A stretch of DNA of 52,254 nucleotides from Candidatus Bathyarchaeota archaeon (GTDB taxonomy: Archaea; Thermoproteota; Bathyarchaeia; Bathyarchaeales; Bathycorpusculaceae): contig PLSP01000145.1 in assembly GCA_003165195.1 (NCBI GenBank), positions 13,598 to 65,851 on the forward strand, in the 5' to 3' direction. How positions within the stretch are numbered: position 1 is the first letter of the stretch; the number at the start of each line of letters is the position of its first letter. Position numbers and translations under genes: made by a program. A model generated the notes under the pieces. That model was not told the origin of the DNA, searched no databases, and was given only the letters and a program-made list of their open reading frames with translations. This document shows positions 22,742 through 33,148 of this stretch, piece after piece.

Positions 22742-23557
22742 ATGCACCCTAAAAACTCAAGAAAAATCGTTATTTCTGCCTTTATCTTCTTATTCTCACT
22801 TGCTCTGCTTGCATCCACAATGTTGCCAAACAAGGCTGACCAGGTAAGTGCGCAAACCAATACGCCGACAATTTTAGTCACTGGATCTAACGGGCAATCA
22901 ATAAACTATACTTTAACTCAACTAGAAGCCTTGCCGAGTGTTACATGGTACGGAGGATTCTATCAGCCTAACCAAAAACAAATTAACAGCGGTCTTTGGA
23001 CCGGAGTGGAACTTCTTTATCTATGTGACCAAGTAGGCGGCTTATCCCCAAGTGGAAACGTGACAGTGACAGGTCAAGGCAACAACACCTTCACCTATAG
23101 CATGATCTACGGCGGCTTGAACCTAAACCAACAATACAACACCTATAACAACCAAACGGGCGCCCTTCAAAATCAAACGCAAAGTATAAGCCTAATATTA
23201 GCCTACCGAGTTAACGGCACAGATTTACCAAGCAGCTCACAGCCAGACCCACGACTAGTTATAATTGGACCGGAAGGATTGCTTATTGACGGCTCAGGCG
23301 GAAGAAGCATTACACAAATAACCGTAACCAGCCCCACGCCCTCACCAACCTTGACGCCAACACCCACGACAGCACCAACCGCATCGCCAAGCCCTTCTAC
23401 TTCCCCAACCATTTTGCCTTCGTCAACGCCAACAGTTTCCGCTTCTCCCACGCCTACTGTTCCAGAATTTTCCGGTTTTGGCTCAGCTGTATTTGAAGTC
23501 ATGCTGGTCATCGCTGTAGTGATTGTTGCGGTCAATGTGATCACTAAACGAAAATAG
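22742..23557 (+). CDS. exported protein with molybdopterin-oxidoreductase-like domain and C-terminal anchor
   Basis: A 271-residue surface protein. An N-terminal signal segment (KIVISAFIFLFSLALLAST, near 8-26) is followed by a domain of about 160 residues resembling the sulfite-oxidase-type molybdopterin fold: ITYTL-like strand, LEALPSVTW, GLWTGVELLYLCDQVGG and DPRLVIIGPEGLL. The usual cofactor Cys of sulfite oxidases is not obvious, so it may have lost redox function. A Pro/Ser/Thr linker (about residues 200-238) probably carries O-glycans. The end VPEFSGFG plus a hydrophobic helix and KRK resembles PEF-type C-terminal sorting or anchoring signals. The ATG at 22742 follows TTCGGAGAAAAAA. Domain assignment is tentative; export is secure. 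Confidence 0.6.
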   Translation: MHPKNSRKIVISAFIFLFSLALLASTMLPNKADQVSAQTNTPTILVTGSNGQSINYTLTQLEALPSVTWYGGFYQPNQKQINSGLWTGVELLYLCDQVGGLSPSGNVTVTGQGNNTFTYSMIYGGLNLNQQYNTYNNQTGALQNQTQSISLILAYRVNGTDLPSSSQPDPRLVIIGPEGLLIDGSGGRSITQITVTSPTPSPTLTPTPTTAPTASPSPSTSPTILPSSTPTVSASPTPTVPEFSGFGSAVFEVMLVIAVVIVAVNVITKRK

Positions 23558-23609
23558 GAAAAGAAATTTTCCCTCTCTTTTAGTACCAAAACAATGATTT
23601 AAGACAAAA

Positions 23610-24206
23610 TTAGCCTATTTTCTTTGTTGATGCATTGGTTTTCTCTATCTTCTTGGTTGCTTGATTTGGGAAATGCACATGCTGGATTCTGTTAACTATT
23701 ATAGCTGAGATCGCGCCTCCTGCTCCTCCGAAAATCAAGCTTGAGGTTCCTGCGACTCCTATGCCTGCGATTAGCAGGTTAGTGTTGCTGAAAAGCTGCG
23801 CTGAAATGTAATAGTTAACCAGAGTTTTATCGAAGCTTCCGAAAGCACCTAAGATAATGCCGACTAAAGGGTTCCCCAGATGTCCCCTAAACACCAATGC
23901 TAAAACATCCATAGTGAAACCCATGGCTGTCCACTCAAACACTTCCAGCATTCCCTTGTCTGCCATACCAATCGTTGCCATAAGTAAACCTGAGAGTATG
24001 CCTATGTAGGTGGCTGCGCCAAATTTTTTGGTTAAGCCAATGCCTATAATGTAAGGTATTACCCAGACAATTGCCGTGTGAGCAGGCAACCCGATTGGAG
24101 TTTTAAAGAATGTCTTAAAGATGTAGACTAATGCAGCCATAAGTGAGAGAAAACTGATTTCATATACCAAGAAGTATTTTTTCCAGTTAAATCGAGATAG
24201 GCTCAT
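23610..24206 (-). CDS. polytopic membrane protein, possible ECF-transporter S-component-like
   Basis: A 198-residue integral membrane protein with five or six hydrophobic helices and a Lys-rich cytoplasmic tail. The pattern (SLMAALVYIFKTF, then LPAHTAIVWVIPYIIGIGLTKKFGAATYIGILSGLL, then a Gly-rich helix pair) resembles substrate-binding S components of energy-coupling-factor vitamin/metal transporters, which are about 170-200 residues. No EcfA or EcfT gene is in the window; such orphan S components are known to share a distant energizing module. The start overlaps the stop of the upstream exported-protein gene by 4 bases, so the two are cotranslated. The ligand is not predictable. An unrelated membrane family remains possible. 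Confidence 0.5.
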   Translation of the reverse strand: MSLSRFNWKKYFLVYEISFLSLMAALVYIFKTFFKTPIGLPAHTAIVWVIPYIIGIGLTKKFGAATYIGILSGLLMATIGMADKGMLEVFEWTAMGFTMDVLALVFRGHLGNPLVGIILGAFGSFDKTLVNYYISAQLFSNTNLLIAGIGVAGTSSLIFGGAGGAISAIIVNRIQHVHFPNQATKKIEKTNASTKKIG

Positions 24207-24979
24207 GTCGGTACACTCGACTTTAAGTTTAACTTGAAATCGTTGCCTATTGTGCCGTTAACGGCAATTAAAAGCACAAAATTGTCTTGTGTGCGACCGC
24301 CTGTGAAATCCACATAGAAGGTTCCTGTTTGCCTGCTTGTGGTAGTAACGTTGCCGTCGAGGTTTTTAGGGTCAGCGGTTATGTGTAGGCTATTTAAGCC
24401 GCCGCCCGACTTGTCAAACTTCATGTAATACGTGTTGTTGCCGTAGTCGTTGAAGGCTGCCCCCTCTTTGTTTGAAACTTTAACATAAATGTAGTCAAAG
24501 TTGGGCATAGCTTGAGTGCTAGATAAAACATTAGATGACCCTGCAGGAGCTGTTACGTAAAAGCCGCTTGCTCCCATGCCGTCTGCACGGTTGGTCCACT
24601 GCATTCCGCCGTTGCCTTTGATATATCCGTAAACGTGGAAGGCGGCGGTGCCTTGTAAACCCGTGAAGGCATAGTCAACCCTCACCACTGGGTATGTAGC
24701 GTTCAAATCCGAGGTTGCGTTCAAGTCAACAAACATTACGTAAAAGTTTCCATTGCTGTTTGCATCAACTCCCGGCATTACTGATAGCTTGGATGAGTAG
24801 GGAACCCATGCTTGGGGACCATAAAGAAAACTTGCCTGCGTGAATGTTTCGTCTAAATGGTAGTTTTCCCCCGTGGTGTTTGCTGGCTGGGTGAGGTAAG
24901 CCCATTGAACAGTAAAAACTATCAGAATCAGCAAGCCGAAAACCGCAAAAGCCGCTGCAAGCTTATACTTGAACTGCAC
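24203..24979 (-). CDS. exported single-anchor protein of unknown function
   Basis: A 258-residue protein with one N-terminal hydrophobic helix (LAAAFAVFGLLILIVFTVQWAY near 7-28) and an external beta-rich domain full of Asn, Thr, Ser, Tyr and Gly. Repeated N-x-T/S sequons (for example NATSDLNAT and NNTY) suggest N-glycosylation. No catalytic motif is recognised. It is the middle gene of a minus-strand operon: two bases separate it from the TiaS-like gene upstream and it overlaps the S-component-like gene downstream by four bases. An external binding protein delivering ligand to the membrane protein is an attractive but unproven idea. Confidence 0.7.
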   Translation of the reverse strand: MQFKYKLAAAFAVFGLLILIVFTVQWAYLTQPANTTGENYHLDETFTQASFLYGPQAWVPYSSKLSVMPGVDANSNGNFYVMFVDLNATSDLNATYPVVRVDYAFTGLQGTAAFHVYGYIKGNGGMQWTNRADGMGASGFYVTAPAGSSNVLSSTQAMPNFDYIYVKVSNKEGAAFNDYGNNTYYMKFDKSGGGLNSLHITADPKNLDGNVTTTSRQTGTFYVDFTGGRTQDNFVLLIAVNGTIGNDFKLNLKSSVPT

Positions 24980-25674: not shown

Positions 25675-26247
25675 CTATAATGCCCCAAACCATTCAACGA
25701 TGTGTATTTTTAGGCATAACGCATTTTTATTATTAAAGTTGTTGGAAACCAAGTTTGTTAGCGCCTAACGAAAAAGTTTAGCACTATTTTGGGGAGCAGT
25801 TTATTTCTTATTAAGATACCATTTGAGGTATCCTTTTCTGCGGTTGTCATTGGTTGATCTTTTCCACCCAAACTGTTTTAAACTTAGCCAAAAACTAAGC
25901 GCGTGAAAATACGGCAATGTAGGTATATTTTCTCAACCCACCAAAGAGTCGTATCCACATTTCGACTTCTTTTACGGACATTCAAGACCTTTGAGGAAGC
26001 TTTAGCTTATGTTAAAGAGATGACCGGTTAGCCTGTGGACAAGGGTGGCAGAGGTGTTTTGAAGCTGACATTTAACATGCTTTCATGATTATTCTTGTTT
26101 TCTTATGAAGAAATTCCTATAAGCGTCTAATGTCTCATGTCATAATTATATCGTTTTATTGAATAGGGTTTTTTGTTTCATCACTGTTTCACCGAACTAT
26201 AATATTCTTTCAAACCCCATAGATAAGACAAAGGAAGTAAGTGAAGA
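25675..26247. other. long intergenic region with several hairpins
   Basis: 573 bases. Three hairpins are clear: GTTAG-CGC-CTAAC (25757-25769), GATACC-ATTTGA-GGTATC (25815-25832) and CTTAG-CCAAAAA-CTAAG (25883-25899). Near 25980-26030 the plus strand is open and would encode TFKTFEEALAYVKEMTG before a TAG, either the end of a tiny gene (possible GTG near 25903) or a remnant. The last 90 bases hold the promoter/operator of the Met-rich gene. No known RNA is recognised. Confidence 0.35.
26175..26207 (+). promoter_or_regulatory. GTTTCA-repeat operator with TATA box, upstream of Met-rich gene 1
   Basis: Two GTTTCA copies at 26175-26180 and 26186-26191, starts 11 bases apart (one helical turn), are followed directly by CCGAACTAT and the TATA box CTATAATATT (26198-26207). 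The same arrangement recurs before the next gene (26987-27012). Shared spacing and flanking CGAACTAT argue for one regulator binding both. Confidence 0.6.
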
Positions 26248-26940
26248 ATGAACAAAAAAGCAATAGGTCTAATCGCGGTAGCAGTGGTCGCAATCGCTTT
26301 AGTTGCTACTGGATTAGTCATATTAATGGGTCACCAAGCTGGAAACCCAGCAAGTAACCAAAATCCCTCAACTGGAACAGCGGGGAAAAGCATTGACCAA
26401 GCTACAACAGCAGTTCAAACCTATCTGGGAAAGATGGGTTATTCTAATCTTGGAATAGCAACAATGCAAGAGTACTCTAACATGTATTATGCACAAGTAG
26501 TTGAGCAAACTAACGGAACTGGAGCATTCGAACTAGCGGTCAATAAGACTACTGGAGTCGTGTCACCTATGCAAGGACCAACTATAATGTGGGACACCAA
26601 GTATGGGGTAACCGAATCTGGGATGATGGGTTACTTAACAAGCACAGGTTCAGCTAGTGGAATGATGGGTGGGGGTGGAATGATGACTTGGCTAAGAGGC
26701 ACACCAACAACCAATATGGTAATCAGCATGGAACAAGCAAAGACTTTAGCTCAACAATACTTGGATGCTAACTATACTGGAACAACCGCGGGTCAAGAAA
26801 CAACATATTATGGATATTACACGATGCAAATTCTGAAGGATGGTAATGTTGTAGGAATGATGGGCGTCTATGGAAACACTGGACAAGTCATGAACTACAC
26901 GTGGATGGGAACATTCATGCAACAGAAAGTCTTTGGTTAA
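26248..26940 (+). CDS. exported Met/Gly-rich protein with two PepSY-like repeats
   Basis: A 230-residue protein with an N-terminal membrane segment (AIGLIAVAVVAIALVATGLVILM near 5-27) and an external part. Two domains of about 70 residues look PepSY-like: one begins SIDQATTAVQTYLGKMGY and ends in the ELAVNKTTGVVSP strand, the other begins VISMEQAKTLAQQYLDANY and ends GVYGNTGQVMNY. Both have the helix-strand-strand layout and the 'tG-x-v' turn. Between them lies a Met/Gly run (SGMMGGGGMMTW near 137-148), and Met recurs near the end. Met-rich exported segments often bind Cu(I) or Ag(I), or act as oxidation sinks; which applies is inference. The ATG at 26248 follows AAGGAAGTAAGTGAAGA. It shares an operator motif with the next gene. 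Confidence 0.7.
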   Translation: MNKKAIGLIAVAVVAIALVATGLVILMGHQAGNPASNQNPSTGTAGKSIDQATTAVQTYLGKMGYSNLGIATMQEYSNMYYAQVVEQTNGTGAFELAVNKTTGVVSPMQGPTIMWDTKYGVTESGMMGYLTSTGSASGMMGGGGMMTWLRGTPTTNMVISMEQAKTLAQQYLDANYTGTTAGQETTYYGYYTMQILKDGNVVGMMGVYGNTGQVMNYTWMGTFMQQKVFG

Positions 26941-26964
26941 CCCACAGTCTCACCTTTTTACAAG

Positions 26965-27012
26965 TTGAAATGTGTTTCAAAAAACTGTTTCATTTTTGTT
27001 TCAGCGAACTAT
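26965..27012 (+). promoter_or_regulatory. GTTTCA-repeat operator with palindrome, upstream of Met-rich gene 2
   Basis: TTGAAA-TGTG-TTTCAA (26965-26980) is a perfect palindrome containing one GTTTCA. Two more GTTTCA copies follow at 26987-26992 and 26998-27003 with 11-base spacing, then GCGAACTAT (27004-27012), matching the operator before gene 1. The later CTTNNNAANCC-NATAG pattern is also shared by both upstream regions. Confidence 0.6.
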
Positions 27013-27052
27013 CTTACCCTTCGAAGCCTATAGTATGTTTGAGGTAAAAAAC

Positions 27053-27361
27053 ATGAACACAAAACTAATAGTCACATTAGTCATAGTTGGAGTATTAGCT
27101 GTTACCATCGTAGGATTGGTTTCAGCGCAAATAGTCACTTCAAACCCAAACGGCACAACAACAAATAGTTCACCAACCAATGGCTTCTTCGGCTGGATGG
27201 GCAGATGCTTTGGATTTAGAAGCACACAGTATTCTGGAACTCAATCACCTGTGTATCTAAGTCAACCAGGGAACATAACAGTGACAGACCCATACACGAA
27301 CACGCCAACGACCTATCAAGGGTACTATGGATATGGCGGATGCATGGGATTCAGACCTTAA
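27053..27361 (+). CDS. small exported Gly/Tyr/Cys-containing protein
   Basis: About 102 residues from ATG 27053. The open frame extends back to 26972, but that part lies in the operator, and MNTKLIVTLVIVGVLAVTIVGLVSAQ is a clean signal peptide with a likely cut after Ala. The mature part begins with a Thr/Asn-rich stretch, then GFFGWMGRCFGFRS near 47-60, a beta-like middle, and ends YYGYGGCMGFRP. The two segments WMGRCFGFR and GGCMGFRP look like repeats, each with Met, Cys, Gly, Phe and Arg, and could form a Cys/Met metal site or a disulfide. No family is recognised. Its operator matches that of the preceding Met-rich gene. Confidence 0.65.
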   Translation: MNTKLIVTLVIVGVLAVTIVGLVSAQIVTSNPNGTTTNSSPTNGFFGWMGRCFGFRSTQYSGTQSPVYLSQPGNITVTDPYTNTPTTYQGYYGYGGCMGFRP

Positions 27362-27458
27362 ACCCCACTGACCTTGTTTTTTTAAGATTTTTCCTTTTCA
27401 GGAGTAATCGCGATTCTGCCCAGTAACGCTTAATTCTGCGCTTTCAGGTTTATTATTT

Positions 27459-27581
27459 ATGAGAAGAATACACATCTTTTTCATCATTCTAATTGCAACA
27501 CTCGTTACTTTGTCCATTCTTGCCTTAGTTAGCTGGTTCTTAGCCACTTCATCCCCAGCTTACTATGGGCAAGCTGGATGA
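27459..27581 (+). CDS. 40-residue single-helix membrane peptide
   Basis: ATG at 27459 opens a 40-codon frame ending TGA at 27579-27581. It encodes RRIHIF followed by one hydrophobic helix (FIILIATLVTLSILALVSWF near 8-27) and a short external tail ending SSPAYYGQAG. The positive-inside N-terminus fits an N-in topology. Its stop overlaps the ATG of the next gene (ATGA at 27578-27581), strong evidence that it is translated and coupled. It is too small for routine annotation. It may be a partner of, or a translational leader for, the membrane-bound regulator that follows. Confidence 0.65.
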   Translation: MRRIHIFFIILIATLVTLSILALVSWFLATSSPAYYGQAG

Positions 27582-28111
27582 AACAAATGTGGAGTGGAAC
27601 AGGAAGCAACACAAACAACGGTGGAATGGGTGGCATGATGGGTAACGGAAACACGACTTCAACATCCTACCTATGGATAATTCCTGTAATCTTAGGTGCC
27701 GCAGTCGGATTTGCTGTCATCGGAGTCGCTTTCTATTATGCCTACCCAGAACTCAAATACATCAGAGGAACTAAATGCGATCCTACTCCATCTGACAAGA
27801 AATTTGGGGCTCATTCTGCTGATCAAGCTGCAGAAACAAGCGATCCTTCGACCAGTAATATGAATGTGCAAAACGTCTCAAACAGCTGTGATGTGCTGTT
27901 GAAAACGATGACTCCTGAAGAAAAGAAGGTTTTGGATGTGTTGGTGGCTCATCAGGGGAAGTACTTGCAAAAGTATGTTTCAAAGGAAGCTGGTCTAAGT
28001 AGGCTTAAGACTCATCGAATTGTGGCTCGGTTTGCGCAACGTGGCATCGTTTCTGTTAAAGAGTTTGGGAACACTAATGAGATAGTTGTTTCTGATTGGC
28101 TCAAACGCTAG
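27578..28111 (+). CDS. membrane-anchored winged-helix transcriptional regulator with Met-rich external N-terminus
   Basis: A 177-residue one-component regulator. Residues 1-30 are external-looking and Met/Gly/Asn-rich (GGMGGMMGNGNTT), then one transmembrane helix (YLWIIPVILGAAVGFAVIGVAFYYA near 32-56), a linker with two single Cys (near 67 and 104) and a C-terminal winged helix: MTPEEKKVLDVLVAHQGKYLQKYVSKEAGLSRLKTHRIVARFAQRGIVSVKEFG. The HTH recognition helix is SRLKTHRIVARF. This layout matches archaeal membrane-tethered MarR/DUF-type HTH proteins. The Met-rich external segment resembles that of the gene at 26.2 kb, so sensing the same ligand (a thiophilic metal or oxidant) outside and acting on the GTTTCA operators inside is a reasonable inference. 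Confidence 0.75.
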   Translation: MKQMWSGTGSNTNNGGMGGMMGNGNTTSTSYLWIIPVILGAAVGFAVIGVAFYYAYPELKYIRGTKCDPTPSDKKFGAHSADQAAETSDPSTSNMNVQNVSNSCDVLLKTMTPEEKKVLDVLVAHQGKYLQKYVSKEAGLSRLKTHRIVARFAQRGIVSVKEFGNTNEIVVSDWLKR

Positions 28112-28138
28112 GATGATTAGGCATCAAGCTGAGGGTCT

Positions 28139-28190
28139 GGGTCTTGAAGGACGAAAGGTAGCGGCAACAAGACCCAAATTTAATTTTTTT
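28139..28190 (+). terminator. hairpin and T-run after the regulator gene
   Basis: GGGTCTTG (28139-28146) and CAAGACCC (28168-28175) form a perfect 8-bp stem with a 21-base loop, followed by a T7 run at 28184-28190. It ends the Met-rich cluster transcript before the convergent scpB. Confidence 0.6.
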
Positions 28191-28306: not shown

Positions 28307-28909
28307 TTATTCTTGCTCTTTTTCGTCTTTTAACGCTTCGCCGAAAATCTTTTTCAAGTTTTTCTTCATTTCAGTTATGTCGTGGGGCAGGCTGAAGTAG
28401 TCCGCGAAGTCATCGGTGGTTTTCAAAGCCATAGAGCGTCCGCTTTTTTCAGCCGTAATCAATCGCCGTTCCTTTAACTCCTTGATGTGACCGTACGCAT
28501 GCTGGCCTCTAACGTCGATTACACGCTTCTGGGAGATAGGCTGCCTTATTGCTATGTAAGAAAGCGTCTTTAGTGGACCTGACGACAGCAATGGCCTGTT
28601 CACCAGTTTTTGGACCAAGTGAGTGTATTCCGCCTTCACCTGAAGCACGAAACGCTCATCCTTTAGCGCTAAAATTTCCACGGCTGAGTTCCTCGCGCTA
28701 TATTCCTGCATCAACATCCCAGCGTACCTTTGGGCTTTCTTTTTGGAACGGCTGCCGATGACTTGGCATAGCTCATTGATGTCTAAGGGGCGACCAGCTA
28801 CAAACAGCGCTGCCTCCATTAGCGATAGGCAGTGAGCTTTCCGCTCATTATCCTGTGTTTGCTCAGCTTCAGGGTTTGAATTAGCTAGTTGTTCCTTGGG
28901 CTTTTCCAA
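28307..28909 (-). CDS. scpB: segregation and condensation protein ScpB
   Basis: A 200-residue kite subunit of the SMC complex. Tandem winged-helix domains are seen: MEAALFVAGRPLDINELCQVIG (first wing, the family signature near 31-52) and SSGPLKTLSYIAIRQPISQKRVIDVRGQHAYGHIKEL (second, near 110-146). The sequence begins with an acidic, Gln-rich tail of about 25 residues. The ATG at 28909 lies 29 bases inside the end of scpA, so translation is coupled. It is the third gene of the smc-scpA-scpB operon. ScpB dimers bind ScpA and stabilise the kleisin bridge. Confidence 0.9.
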   Translation of the reverse strand: MEKPKEQLANSNPEAEQTQDNERKAHCLSLMEAALFVAGRPLDINELCQVIGSRSKKKAQRYAGMLMQEYSARNSAVEILALKDERFVLQVKAEYTHLVQKLVNRPLLSSGPLKTLSYIAIRQPISQKRVIDVRGQHAYGHIKELKERRLITAEKSGRSMALKTTDDFADYFSLPHDITEMKKNLKKIFGEALKDEKEQE

Positions 28910-29597
28910 CGTTTAGTTTCCCCACAGCAATGTATAATTCTTCAGTTTCCTCGTTCTGCCAAAGGCTCACTAAGCCATCCTGAGCTAAAAACAACAGGTA
29001 AATAAACATTCGCAGCGCTTCCATGCGGGTGGCGCCTTTAGAGAGGGTTGTGAAATCGATTATTCCTGAACCCTTAACTTTTTCGCATAAAATCGCGTAC
29101 AGCTGGTCAACTTGGAGCTCTAGTTCTGCAATGAACTTATCAAACTGGGGAAGCAAATCTGTGACCGAAGGCAAAATCGGGTGCTGCTGGACTGCATGAT
29201 CGAGCCGCAACAGTTTTTCTCCTTTCAATACATCATCAAGGACTTCAAGCAGATGCTGAATAGTCGTGGACGTCAACTCATGGCGTAGCGGCAAAAACAG
29301 AGGCGGCGGAACAAAATCGGTTGGTCCTTTGGGAGGTAGCGTAGGCGGCTCTTGGAGTGTGAGCAGAAGTTTCGACTTCATGAGGTAAATTAAAGCTGAA
29401 GAGTCCAAGGCAACGCCTGAAGCTCGGAAATCCACGTTTTGAGTCTTCTCCATTTCTGATAGAAATGACCGTAACAAGTAGGCTATGTTAACGTTCCATG
29501 GGGTAACTTTTTCAAGTTTGCTTATTTCAAAGAGAATGTTCCATGGCGGACGCAGATAGAACGGTCTTCTTATTGGAGCTGATGAGGATGACGCCAT
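28881..29597 (-). CDS. scpA: segregation and condensation protein ScpA (kleisin)
   Basis: A 238-residue kleisin bridging the two SMC heads. The N-terminal domain (WNILFEISKLEKVTPWNVNIAYLLRSFLSEME near 19-50) matches the ScpA helix that binds the SMC neck, and VALDSSALIYLMKSKLLL near 62-79 is the second conserved helix. The middle is Pro-rich (LQEPPTLPPKGP), and the C-terminal winged helix (GIIDFTTLSKGATRMEALRMFIYLLFLAQDGLVSLWQ near 183-219) binds the SMC cap. Its ATG overlaps the smc stop as TAATG, and its end overlaps scpB by 29 bases. Confidence 0.9.
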   Translation of the reverse strand: MASSSSAPIRRPFYLRPPWNILFEISKLEKVTPWNVNIAYLLRSFLSEMEKTQNVDFRASGVALDSSALIYLMKSKLLLTLQEPPTLPPKGPTDFVPPPLFLPLRHELTSTTIQHLLEVLDDVLKGEKLLRLDHAVQQHPILPSVTDLLPQFDKFIAELELQVDQLYAILCEKVKGSGIIDFTTLSKGATRMEALRMFIYLLFLAQDGLVSLWQNEETEELYIAVGKLNVGKAQGTTS

Positions 29598-32500
29598 TAA
29601 ACAGCTGCCTCCGGTGGGAACTTTGCGGTTACAACGTTGGAGACTCCATTGCGCTCGTAGACTCCATAGACTTTCTGCGCTTTGTTAACCATTTCGGGGC
29701 GTAAGCTTATTACTATAAACTGCATTTTCGCTGCTTCTTCAAGCAGTAACTCAGCAAGCTTGGTTGTGTGATAAGCATCTAAGTGTGCATCAACCTCGTC
29801 AAGAATGTAGAATGATGCAGGGGTGAAGTCTTTAAGCGAAAATATGAAGGCAACTGCTGAAATAGACCGTTCTCCGCCGCTTGCACCGCTAACCACTATT
29901 GACGGTTTGTTAGGAAACATAACATTCATATCTATGCCTCCAAGGAAAGGGTCCTCTGAGTTTTCAAGTTTAAGTGTAGCTTCTCCGCCACCGGTTAGTT
30001 TAGAGAAGTAAACTTTGAGGCTGGTGTTGATTTTTTCGAAGGCGCTCATGAAAACCTTGCGTTTCTTCGACTCAATTTCATCCATAAAGTGCACGATAGC
30101 CTGTTTTTCTTTCTCCAACTCGTTTAACCGGACAGACAGTTCTCTGTAACGACTAATCTGGTCTGAGTAATGGGAAAGAGCAAGCTGGTTTATAGCGCCA
30201 ATTCGCTCCATTTCAAACTGCATCATGCGGATGGTTGTTTCGGCCTCCTCAACCTGCTTTTGGCTTGTCTCCAGCGGCTGCTCATAGCCGAACTGACGCA
30301 GTTGACCCTGAAGCTGCTGCAAGCGCAGTTGGCTGGTTTCCATACTAAGTTGAAGCTGGTTAAGAAGCCTATCTGACTGTTCATACTCTGAATCGAGAGT
30401 TCGCAACTCTGAGTCAATTGAGTCTATTTGGGAGGTGAACTTTTTGGATTCTTCACGGGCGCTAAAAACAGCTTTTGAAAGCTCTACCCGGGATTTCTCT
30501 TGTTCATCAAGATCCTTCTTTATTGCCTCACGTTCCACAAGGGCGTCGGAAACCTCTTTGTCAACTTTCTTCTGTTGTTGCTCAACCTTAACTACCTGTA
30601 TCTTTATGTTTTTGTAACCGTTGCGAAGCACTCTGTCGAATTGTGATTGGTAGGTTGAAATTTCCGTCTGCAGAGAACCAGATTTTTGACGAAAAACGTT
30701 AACATCCTCGCCTATTCTCTCCCGTTGACCTTCCAGCTCCTGGATGTGGGTTACATCGGTTTTCAGTCGTAAGTTGGCGATATCTGTCCGGAGTTTTTGG
30801 TCTTCCTTCAGAATAGAGTTTCGTTCGTTTCGGTACATGCTCATGCGACCTTTGTAAGCTGCCGCCTCACGTTCTAGTTTGCTCCCATATTTCCCTGTGT
30901 GCCTAATGTTGAATTGAGTGCGTTTAACGCCCCGTTTGATCCTGACTATTTCTCTGTCTAATGTGGCGATGGATTCGGTGAGGCGTGTGAACTCAATTCT
31001 GGTTTTATCTATATCCTCAACAATGCCGTCGATATCGCTTCCTCTCTGCGTTAAATGCGTTTGAAGCGCGTTTACTGCTTCATCTAAGCTTTTCAGAGCA
31101 TTCTCGCTTGGAATGATTGTTGAGAAATCTATTGGAGATCGGTAGTAGCCACCTTCGAAAGCGCCTGGCTCATAGAGGTCGCCACTAACTGTAACGGCTC
31201 GGTAGCCTTCGTTTGATAGGGCAAAAGCCGCTTTATCGTTGGAGACTACCATAGTGTCGCCGAAAACATAGTTCACAGCCAACTCAAAGGTACCCTCGTA
31301 CTTCATGAAATTTGAAAGGGCACCAACTACACCTTCCCGATTGGGCGTTGCCTTATTCTTAACCGCGATTGCTCCTTGCAATGGAATAATCTTGATTCTG
31401 CCTAACTTCATACGCCTTAGTGTTTCAGTACAGGTAAACGCGGTGTCCACACTTGATACTACCAAGGCGTCAAGCCAACCTGTCGCCGCTGCTTCAATGG
31501 CTTTCTTATAGTTTTTGTCAATTTTAATTAAATTGCGAAGCCTGCCCTGGATTCCATTTATGGCGCCAACATTACCCATTTCCTCTATACTTCTCAGAGC
31601 CTTCTCTTCCGCAGCAATAGTTGCGGCTAGGTCTCGCTGTGTCGCAAACTCGATAACGGCTTCTTTAGCTGAGATAGCTATTTTTTCTGCTTCGTTAATT
31701 TCCTTTTCGACATTTTCTTTCTGAGCTTTTTTGCGTTCGACAGTGCTTTCAAGGACTTTAAGCTGGGTTTTCTGGTCTCGTTGAACTTGCTCAAGCTCGC
31801 TAAGAGATTTTTCGATTTCAGCTAAGTTAATTTCGAACCTTTCTTTTCGTACATTGAGGTTTTTGATTCGTCCTGTGCATAGACGCAATGCAGCTTTGTC
31901 TTTGGTGTGTTCTGAGCGCAAATACGCTATGCGTTTAACATGATTGTTGATTTCTGTCTGTTTGGCGCGGATTTGCTGGTTGTTATCGTCTAGTCCTCCC
32001 CAGAGTTCAGCTGTTTGTTTTGCCATTTCTTGGTGTTCTGCCTGTTTGATTGCCATTGCCTCGGTAATTTTTGCGAGTTCATTGCGGAAGACTCGGATTT
32101 TTAGGCGATTTTCCCGTATTTCTTTTCGTATGTTTTCTTCTTGTGCTACGTTGTTTTCTCTTACTCGTTTGAGGCTCTCTAAGCTTCCTTGTCCGGAATT
32201 GATTTTGGTGATTAATTCCGTAAGTTTAGATTTTAAGTCGCCGATACTTATTTGGACTTTGAGGACTTGGCTGCCGCCTTCTTCGAGATTTTCGCCGCTA
32301 AGTTTGCGCCAATCCGATTCGATCTCATGTCGTTTAGACCTGCGGAGGCCACGCTGCTCTTTGAGTTTGTCAACTCTTGCTTTCACCTTCGCCATTTGGG
32401 CAGTTGCTTCGTTAACTTTGACGTTTTGATTGGCTATGTCGCTTGAGATTTTGATGGCTTGGAACTTTTTAGTTTCGCTTTGTATGAAGTTGTAGCGTAA

Positions 32501-33148
32501 TAGTTGGTTTCGTTCGCGTTCCAAATCGTCGAGGCGTTTTTGCACCTCGTCAATTCTGCCCATGGCCGTGCGGATTGAAATATCTGCAGCCCGAAGTTTC
32601 TCTTCTGCCTCAGCTTTTTCAGAGTCATATTGGCCTATGCCGACGAGGTCTTCGATGATTTTGCGGCGTTCCACAGGGTTGATGTCAGTTAGCCGCGTTA
32701 GGGTACCTTGGGGGATGATGTTTTGGCTCATGCTGCTGATTGAACTCATAGACAATGTTTCTGTAATGAACTGCCTAGACATGCGTCGGCCGTTCAGTCG
32801 GTAAACGCTCTGGCCGTTACGGTAAACTTCCCTTGAAATCGTCACCGTAGTTGTGTCAACAGGCATGGTGCCGTCGGTGTTGTCAAATTGGATAACGACT
32901 TTAGCCATTGTGGCTTTTTGCTGCCCCGCTTTATCTGAGCCGTGAAAGATAAGTTGCGCTGCACTTTCAGCACGCATCCTCCTCGTACTCAATTCGCCAA
33001 GGGAGAAAAGTACTGCATCCATGATGTTGGATTTTCCGCTGCCATTGGGACCTGTAAATGAAGTAAAACCTTTATCGAGGCCTATTTTTATGGTCTGTGG
33101 CCCAAAAGATTTGAACCCTTTTATTTCAATTTTTTTTATGAAGGGCAT
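29597..33148 (-). CDS. smc: chromosome segregation ATPase SMC
   Basis: A 1183-residue SMC protein, motor of chromosome condensation and segregation. The N-terminal head has Walker A GPNGSGKSN (33-41) and the Q-loop region. A first long coiled coil follows to about residue 510. The hinge begins near MGNVGAINGIQGRLRNLIK and contains WLDALVVSS, GAIAVKNKA and VFGDTMVVS, followed by the Gly-rich EPGAFEGGYY. A second coiled coil runs to about 1010. The C-terminal head has the signature SGASGGERS, Walker B FYILDEVDAHLD and the D-loop. All ATPase motifs are intact and the length is standard. An A/T-rich promoter (AAATAATATAC, about 33181-33191 on the minus strand) and a palindrome CGCATATGCG (33234-33243) lie upstream. 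Confidence 0.97.
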   Translation of the reverse strand: MPFIKKIEIKGFKSFGPQTIKIGLDKGFTSFTGPNGSGKSNIMDAVLFSLGELSTRRMRAESAAQLIFHGSDKAGQQKATMAKVVIQFDNTDGTMPVDTTTVTISREVYRNGQSVYRLNGRRMSRQFITETLSMSSISSMSQNIIPQGTLTRLTDINPVERRKIIEDLVGIGQYDSEKAEAEEKLRAADISIRTAMGRIDEVQKRLDDLERERNQLLRYNFIQSETKKFQAIKISSDIANQNVKVNEATAQMAKVKARVDKLKEQRGLRRSKRHEIESDWRKLSGENLEEGGSQVLKVQISIGDLKSKLTELITKINSGQGSLESLKRVRENNVAQEENIRKEIRENRLKIRVFRNELAKITEAMAIKQAEHQEMAKQTAELWGGLDDNNQQIRAKQTEINNHVKRIAYLRSEHTKDKAALRLCTGRIKNLNVRKERFEINLAEIEKSLSELEQVQRDQKTQLKVLESTVERKKAQKENVEKEINEAEKIAISAKEAVIEFATQRDLAATIAAEEKALRSIEEMGNVGAINGIQGRLRNLIKIDKNYKKAIEAAATGWLDALVVSSVDTAFTCTETLRRMKLGRIKIIPLQGAIAVKNKATPNREGVVGALSNFMKYEGTFELAVNYVFGDTMVVSNDKAAFALSNEGYRAVTVSGDLYEPGAFEGGYYRSPIDFSTIIPSENALKSLDEAVNALQTHLTQRGSDIDGIVEDIDKTRIEFTRLTESIATLDREIVRIKRGVKRTQFNIRHTGKYGSKLEREAAAYKGRMSMYRNERNSILKEDQKLRTDIANLRLKTDVTHIQELEGQRERIGEDVNVFRQKSGSLQTEISTYQSQFDRVLRNGYKNIKIQVVKVEQQQKKVDKEVSDALVEREAIKKDLDEQEKSRVELSKAVFSAREESKKFTSQIDSIDSELRTLDSEYEQSDRLLNQLQLSMETSQLRLQQLQGQLRQFGYEQPLETSQKQVEEAETTIRMMQFEMERIGAINQLALSHYSDQISRYRELSVRLNELEKEKQAIVHFMDEIESKKRKVFMSAFEKINTSLKVYFSKLTGGGEATLKLENSEDPFLGGIDMNVMFPNKPSIVVSGASGGERSISAVAFIFSLKDFTPASFYILDEVDAHLDAYHTTKLAELLLEEAAKMQFIVISLRPEMVNKAQKVYGVYERNGVSNVVTAKFPPEAAV

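Follow-up and report, generated by a model that had tools for sequence, protein, structure and literature searches.

Results

The stretch of DNA analysed in this study (52,254 nucleotides, hereafter the window; contig PLSP01000145.1 of assembly GCA_003165195.1) derives from a Candidatus Bathyarchaeota archaeon, the genome of which comprises 3.16 Mb in 171 contigs (completeness 95.3, contamination 5.5). On its plus strand lies a cluster of two repeat elements, two genes for exported proteins and the gene of a predicted membrane-tethered regulator. Both elements read GTTTCA-N5-GTTTCA-NCGAACTAT and are positioned 5' of a gene encoding an exported, Met/Gly-rich protein, as had been proposed in a preliminary description of this DNA. 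The first predicted operator (26175..26200; GTTTCA-N5-GTTTCA-N3-AACTAT) is directly followed by the gene of a PepSY-like protein of 230 amino acid (aa) residues (26248..26940), the start codon of which begins 50 bases past the AAC, an arrangement shared by its relatives. The second (26974..27012; GTTTCA-N7-GTTTCA-N5-GTTTCA-N3-AACTAT) contains the common element at 26987-27012, preceded by an extra GTTTCA copy at 26974, and lies directly upstream of the gene for a small exported protein of 102 aa (27053..27361), for which the start at 27053 is the most plausible choice within a longer open reading frame (ORF) running from 26972. The Met- and Cys-containing segments previously reported for these products are present, namely MMGGGGMM in the PepSY-like protein and, in the small protein, WMGRCFGF and GGCMGF, which lie within FFGWMGRCFGF and GYGGCMGF, respectively. 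In relatives, small exported proteins resembling the latter are likewise encoded behind the same operator.

The PepSY-like protein scored 21.9 bits against the Pfam family PF14620 (YpeB PepSY), below the cut-off of 31.7. Its AlphaFold2 model (mean predicted local distance difference test score, pLDDT, of 62) contains two repeats of one helix and three strands at middling confidence, with the MMGGGGMM stretch modelled at low confidence, and its best PDB match in Foldseek was the C-terminal domain of YpeB (5boi; E value 1e-4, but a TM-score of 0.25). No solved structure was convincingly related by sequence to this protein or to the regulator, and a search of NCBIfam profiles yielded no match above cut-off.

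The regulator is encoded in the window by two ORFs that overlap at ATGA: a hydrophobic one of 40 aa (27459..27581) and one of 177 aa (27578..28111), which encodes a Met/Gly-rich stretch (GGMGGMM), a transmembrane helix, a linker and a predicted winged helix-turn-helix (wHTH) DNA-binding domain (27908..28087, residues 111-170). In 18 loci of relatives (L036, L039, L040 and 15 others; L and G numbers denote loci and genomes, respectively) the corresponding protein is a single ORF of 166-228 aa, arranged as first transmembrane helix, Met-rich loop, second transmembrane helix, linker and winged helix; L036 is an intact paralogue that the same genome carries on contig C2. Alignment of the DNA with L036, L039 and L040 revealed that the window has one base fewer than these loci where the two ORFs meet, placing the remainder out of frame, and that the 40-aa ORF matches the first transmembrane helix of the intact proteins; as a rule, therefore, the Met-rich stretch forms a loop that connects two helices. 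The model of four adjacent genes, one of them encoding a separate 40-residue membrane peptide, was accordingly rejected in favour of three genes, and while the HTH domain and the GGMGGMM segment of the regulator were borne out, its supposed free external N-terminus was not.

The DNA-binding domain was assigned to Pfam DUF7343 (PF24034, cut-off 27.6 bits) in all five proteins scanned: the window regulator over residues 114-170 (31.9 bits), the paralogue L036 (34.3), L119 (37.2), L143 (42.5) and L053 (40.7). The motifs GLSRLKTHRI and NTN are conserved in the winged helix across relatives. In an AlphaFold2 model of the intact relative L114, residues 2-31 and 80-101 form helices, residues 54-73 and 109-139 are modelled at low confidence and residues from about 141 to 216 constitute a confident wHTH (pLDDT mostly 92-96), and many of the top Foldseek matches of this domain were MarR proteins (E about 1e-3); the Pfam MarR_2 match of the window regulator fell below cut-off. 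A transmembrane transcription regulator combines a DNA-binding domain and at least one transmembrane segment in one polypeptide, and the intact relatives, including the paralogue of the same genome, contain two hydrophobic helices and a wHTH; the window copy retains the second helix and the wHTH in one ORF.

Under a simple composition model assuming 45% G+C, GTTTCA-N5-GTTTCA-N3-AAC is expected approximately 0.003 times per Mb, whereas the host genome contains four copies and none of the reversed pattern. The bare pair GTTTCA-N5-GTTTCA occurs five times (once in reverse), the fifth copy, on contig C73, lacking the AAC and lying between convergent ORFs. The element is not spread over unrelated promoters, since all four extended sites precede genes for exported, Met-containing proteins, and the synteny recurs in relatives, both in agreement with the preliminary description. 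Among 61 genomes, 37 extended elements were detected in 15 genomes (reversed control, 3), and 398 genomes sampled from the phylum yielded 31 sites in 20 genomes (reversed control, 3). The 22 genomes behind the named loci, of which at least six also belong to the 398-genome sample as judged by common site coordinates, hold 0-3 sites of the GTWTCA type each, with sites present in 15 of them and 19 in total (reversed control, 0). On the basis of these reversed controls, chance occurrence of the repeats was rejected.

Presence of the element follows that of the regulator. It was found in each of the 14 genomes that encode a regulator homologue at E<1e-20 and in 1 of 47 others (G021), for which Fisher's test gives 7e-13, a value that overstates the evidence because the genomes are related and the sets overlapping (the 61- and 398-genome samples share genomes, and loci such as L112, L114, L116, L117, L125, L126, L129 and L134 recur in the former). 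At E<=0.001 the same 61 genomes gave 14/23 against 1/38. In the larger sample the element occurred in 14/14 genomes with a regulator at E<=1e-60 against 6/384 others, this cut-off and that of 1e-20 having been chosen after the data were seen, and in 15/20 against 5/378 at E<=1e-40. Among the six exceptions, G122 carries a regulator at 4.5e-44, while G069, G084, G170, G221 and G232, which have no regulator among the matches listed, contain sites that terminate in AAAAC or AGAAAC. Three congeneric genomes (f25 g50; L203, L204 and L205), for which no regulator match was listed either, retain a GTTTCA pair ending in ATAAAAC 5' of a 167-aa ORF. Fourteen of the 19 strong-regulator genomes have an exact site no more than about 1.2 kb from the regulator. 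Among the 55 named regulator loci, 29 possess an exact GTWTCA-N5-GTTTCA-N3-AAC site (reversed control, 0), three a site with one mismatch (L116, L121, L124) and two a site with two mismatches (L123, L128); six exhibit another spacing or orientation (L131, L157-L160, L162) and L122 contains several irregularly spaced GTTTC copies. The pairing of regulator and operator is, on these comparative grounds, well supported.

Deduplication by identical 60-base cores left 68 distinct sites of the GTWTCA type, 61 of which lie 5' of a gene whose product is an exported or membrane protein, the start codon being located at a median of 45 bases past the AAC (40-60 bases in 53/61). An N-terminal hydrophobic peak was present in 59 of these 61 predicted targets, one of the two exceptions being cut by the end of its locus. 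They comprise 22 PepSY-like proteins, 23 other small exported proteins, 14 proteins with four transmembrane segments resembling DUF4064/DUF6114 and two cupredoxins (those with exact sites), classes that were set by sequence pattern, "other small exported" denoting the remaining cases and no signal-peptide program being employed; the PepSY-like protein of L200 was first classed by pattern from its own sequence and then confirmed by BLAST. The remaining seven sites (L093, L225 and L203-L207) do not precede such a gene; those of L203-L207 were set aside by name as coming from genomes without a close regulator. Genome G022 (L086-L094, L106) contains ten operator sites, five before PepSY-like Met-rich paralogues, four before small exported proteins and one before neither, which amounts to a lineage-specific expansion of the regulon.

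Loop, operator and target vary together to a large extent. Loop Met content was determined with a hydropathy script, by which L128 was misparsed (start too late), rendering its 0% void, L135 and L138 were cut short and L165 and L166 were left unparsed. Loops of the Met-rich class mostly contain 7-20% Met (5% in L115), as compared to 0-5% in the cytosolic parts. In the class formed by L143-L156 the loop contains 0% Met, the operator is GTATCA-N5-GTTTCA in 11 of 14 loci (L148, L152 and L153, the other three, begin at most 525 bases from the locus edge) and the target is a different one, the four-transmembrane DUF4064/DUF6114-like protein; this type would represent a sister system of the Met-loop one. 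Within the 398-genome sample, GTATCA-N5-GTTTCA-N-C-N-AAC is confined to four genomes (control, 0), three of them in family f16, and two of those three carry this Met-free type of regulator. A lone GTATCA-N5-GTTTCAGCCAAC site was observed at G033:C55:29464 (L231); this genome belongs to the same family as that of the window and has no regulator among the matches listed.

A third class (L053-L055, L157-L160) combines a short loop containing a single Met with the operator GTTTCA-N5-TGAAAC-N5-GTTWCA. The inversion of its middle half-site with retention of the 11-base phase points to GTTTCA as the unit that a single wHTH reads. It also bears on the proposal that GTTTCA-N5-GTTTCA-N3-AAC serves this lineage as a core promoter element for highly expressed exported proteins, as might be supposed from the manner in which it abuts the BRE/TATA-like AACTAT (BRE, the transcription factor B recognition element) at a near-fixed distance from the start codon. 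A variable half-site orientation is expected of a regulator site, and with 0-10 sites per genome, tied to the presence of one regulator, we consider this proposal most improbable; a genome-wide promoter element was rejected for the same scarcity of sites and their tie to the regulator.

In six loci of the Nitrososphaerota/Thaumarchaeota (L119, L120, L121, L123, L128 and L131), a cupredoxin gene is located beside the regulator gene and convergent to it. All six cupredoxins exceed the cut-off of PF00127 (plastocyanin/azurin; 41.7-56.8 bits, cut-off 21.2), possess a Met/Gly-rich or Met/His-rich N-terminal part and carry a C-terminal Cys...His...Met pattern, which is a copper-ligand pattern. Each is preceded by an exact or diverged operator: exact GTTTCA pairs in L119 and L120, a pair with one mismatch in L121, GTATCA-N5-GTTGCA in L123 and L128, and GTTTCA copies at spacings of 12 and 23 in L131. 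The remaining Met-loop loci of this group are L137, which has a PepSY-like target, and L122, which has a small Met-rich exported ORF downstream of its irregular GTTTC copies. In L162 (Caldarchaeum) a GTTTCA pair lies 5' of a small exported ORF with the sequence MWGMMPP...CEECYGMMYY. The presence of a Met-rich cupredoxin beside the regulator in six loci supports copper, and the ligand is probably copper or Cu(I)-like. Of the circuit sensing Cu(I)/Ag(I) or oxidants that was originally envisaged, the comparative linkage stands and the soft-metal reading is aided by these cupredoxin genes, while the separate peptide and the free N-terminal sensor have been discarded.

Several neighbouring genes were also noted. 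An IlvD-like gene, which we take to encode a dihydroxy-acid dehydratase, adjoins the regulator cluster in L041, L042, L049 and L118, a synteny that is maintained without obvious reason. Within the window, the region 22742-24979 encodes an exported protein with weak likeness to the molybdopterin oxidoreductase fold (PF00174, below cut-off), adjoined by a weakly ABC_cobalt-like membrane protein (PF09819, below cut-off) and an ORF without family, and these genes perhaps constitute a metal or vitamin uptake unit. On the minus strand, 28307-33148 contains in a row ScpB (PF04079), a weak ScpA match and an ORF presumed to encode an SMC-like ATPase.

Discussion

Based on the above, we consider it fairly probable that the window encodes a member of a family of membrane-tethered, one-component DUF7343 regulators that respond to a soft metal, likeliest Cu(I), via an outer Met loop and control exported metal-binding proteins. 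Genome comparison documents the linkage of regulator, operator and target, its spread, the geometry of the operator and the variants that largely match the subfamilies, whereas the binding of GTTTCA half-sites by this particular protein, and of a ligand by its outer Met loop, is what we infer. The winged helix would bind tandem half-sites one helical turn apart, just 5' of the BRE/TATA-like AACTAT, and would thereby control between one and a few genes encoding exported Met-rich proteins. The outer Met loop would bind the metal, for which Cu(I) is the best guess, Ag(I) being chemically alike, and the exported targets, with their like Met/Gly segments, would bind the same ligand outside the cell and so close a feedback loop; the likeness between loop and target motifs (GGMGGMMG and MMGGGGMM) suggests negative feedback by ligand competition. 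That the regulator activates rather than represses is a guess, prompted by the position of the sites, which immediately precede the presumed BRE/TATA without covering it; the regulator might instead repress by blocking transcription factor B. Both window operators may be served by the intact paralogue encoded elsewhere in the genome.

A number of observations weigh against this reading. The window copy of the regulator may be dead, or its split an assembly error. Most loci were collected because of the regulator or the operator. Five of the 19 strong-regulator genomes (G012, G013, G029, G367 and G405) lack an exact site within about 1.2 kb of the regulator, although each has one elsewhere, and 14 of the 55 named loci show no clear site (L113, L115, L118, L126, L127, L132, L139, L148, L152, L153, L161, L163, L164 and L165); five of these have an exact site elsewhere in the genome (L113, L118, L127, L139 and L126, the last being that of G029), and L115 and L165 begin, as do L148, L152 and L153, at most 525 bases from the locus edge. 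The match between loop class and operator is imperfect, as GTATCA also accompanies Met loops, forming the first half-site in L123 and L128 (GTATCA-N5-GTTGCA) and part of a GTTTCA-N5-GTATCA copy in L114, L116 and L124. Equally, the four-transmembrane targets of L135, L138, L154 and L166 hold 5-8% Met, while the parsed loops of L135, L138 and L154 hold none. As regards copper itself, the Bathyarchaeia targets are PepSY-like or Cys/Tyr/Gly-rich, several of the small ones containing just 1-3% Met, and none of those seen is a cupredoxin.

Two further observations of this kind would each favour another explanation. ORFs that we take to be peroxiredoxin-like occur near targets in L052 and L096, and a presumably OsmC-like ORF lies near the paralogue L036, as would be fitting if the same regulator, operator and targets served oxidant stress, with oxidation of the loop Met residues as the signal and the exported Met-rich proteins as sacrificial scavengers, of which bacteria possess Met-rich examples. 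The six Nitrososphaerota/Thaumarchaeota targets, however, are cupredoxins that all carry the Cys...His...Met pattern, and an oxidant signal seems unlikely to us. Secondly, an ArsR-like gene is located directly 3' of the PepSY-like target in seven loci (L039, L089, L090, L092, L095, L101 and L102; that of L039 passes the Pfam ArsR cut-off), and another factor such as this might bind the GTTTCA repeats, the membrane protein merely travelling with the cluster. ArsR-like ORFs were nevertheless detected by tblastn with the L039 query in just 4 of the 55 named regulator loci, as compared to an exact operator in 29 and a variant one in about a dozen more; ArsR was rejected as the GTTTCA binder owing to this rarity near regulators, and we regard a separate binding factor as quite unlikely.

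The candidate DUF7343 regulator shares features with several known systems. CueR, CsoR and archaeal CopR are cytoplasmic copper sensors, with which it would have in common a Cu(I) ligand and the control of copper proteins, while its presumed sensing residues lie outside the membrane. The two-component systems CusRS and CopRS sense copper extracytoplasmically and have Met-rich periplasmic partners; extracytoplasmic copper sensing and Met-rich exported binders would be common to both, whereas here sensing and DNA binding are predicted to reside in one kinase-free protein. Archaeal ArnR is a transmembrane transcription regulator. Such regulators, including CadC, ToxR and TcpP, form a recognised class in bacteria and archaea, and, as here, unite a DNA-binding domain and a membrane segment in one protein that senses across the membrane (PMC10269533). 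Unlike CadC, ToxR and TcpP, the present protein has its DUF7343/MarR-like wHTH at the C terminus, preceded by two helices at the N-terminal end that enclose a Met-rich loop. In the main text of that article there is no occurrence of the terms copper, metal, Bathyarchae or Thaumarchae. Promoter motifs associated with copper limitation in Nitrososphaera viennensis, given in PMC7785015 as TTCSGSMTTTGWACYANT and RATTTAAABATAGATTTAAATAATAAS, are also located upstream of archaeal copper-related genes, and their sequences differ from GTTTCA-N5-GTTTCA. Literature searches, mainly of titles and abstract openings and not proof of absence in print, retrieved neither a prior description of the regulator-operator system nor a paper on DUF7343.

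Conclusions

The system may represent, though we advance this with reserve, an undescribed and widespread class of archaeal extracytoplasmic sensors of copper or soft metals, in which sensor and effector share one Met-based ligand-binding code, and in which loop and target are swapped in concert on a conserved wHTH and operator, as in a modular sensor chassis. Signalling in the uncultured Bathyarchaeia and Nitrososphaeria is little known, and the locus offers a compact unit of sensor, operator and target for which a ligand and a binding site are predicted; a 15-base pattern serves to recognise it, and its purified components would allow a direct test. The joint exchange of loops and targets supplies a set of natural variants with which sensors could be mapped to their signals and, if copper is indeed the ligand, the family would constitute a one-protein route by which archaea of soil and sediment sense extracellular metal.

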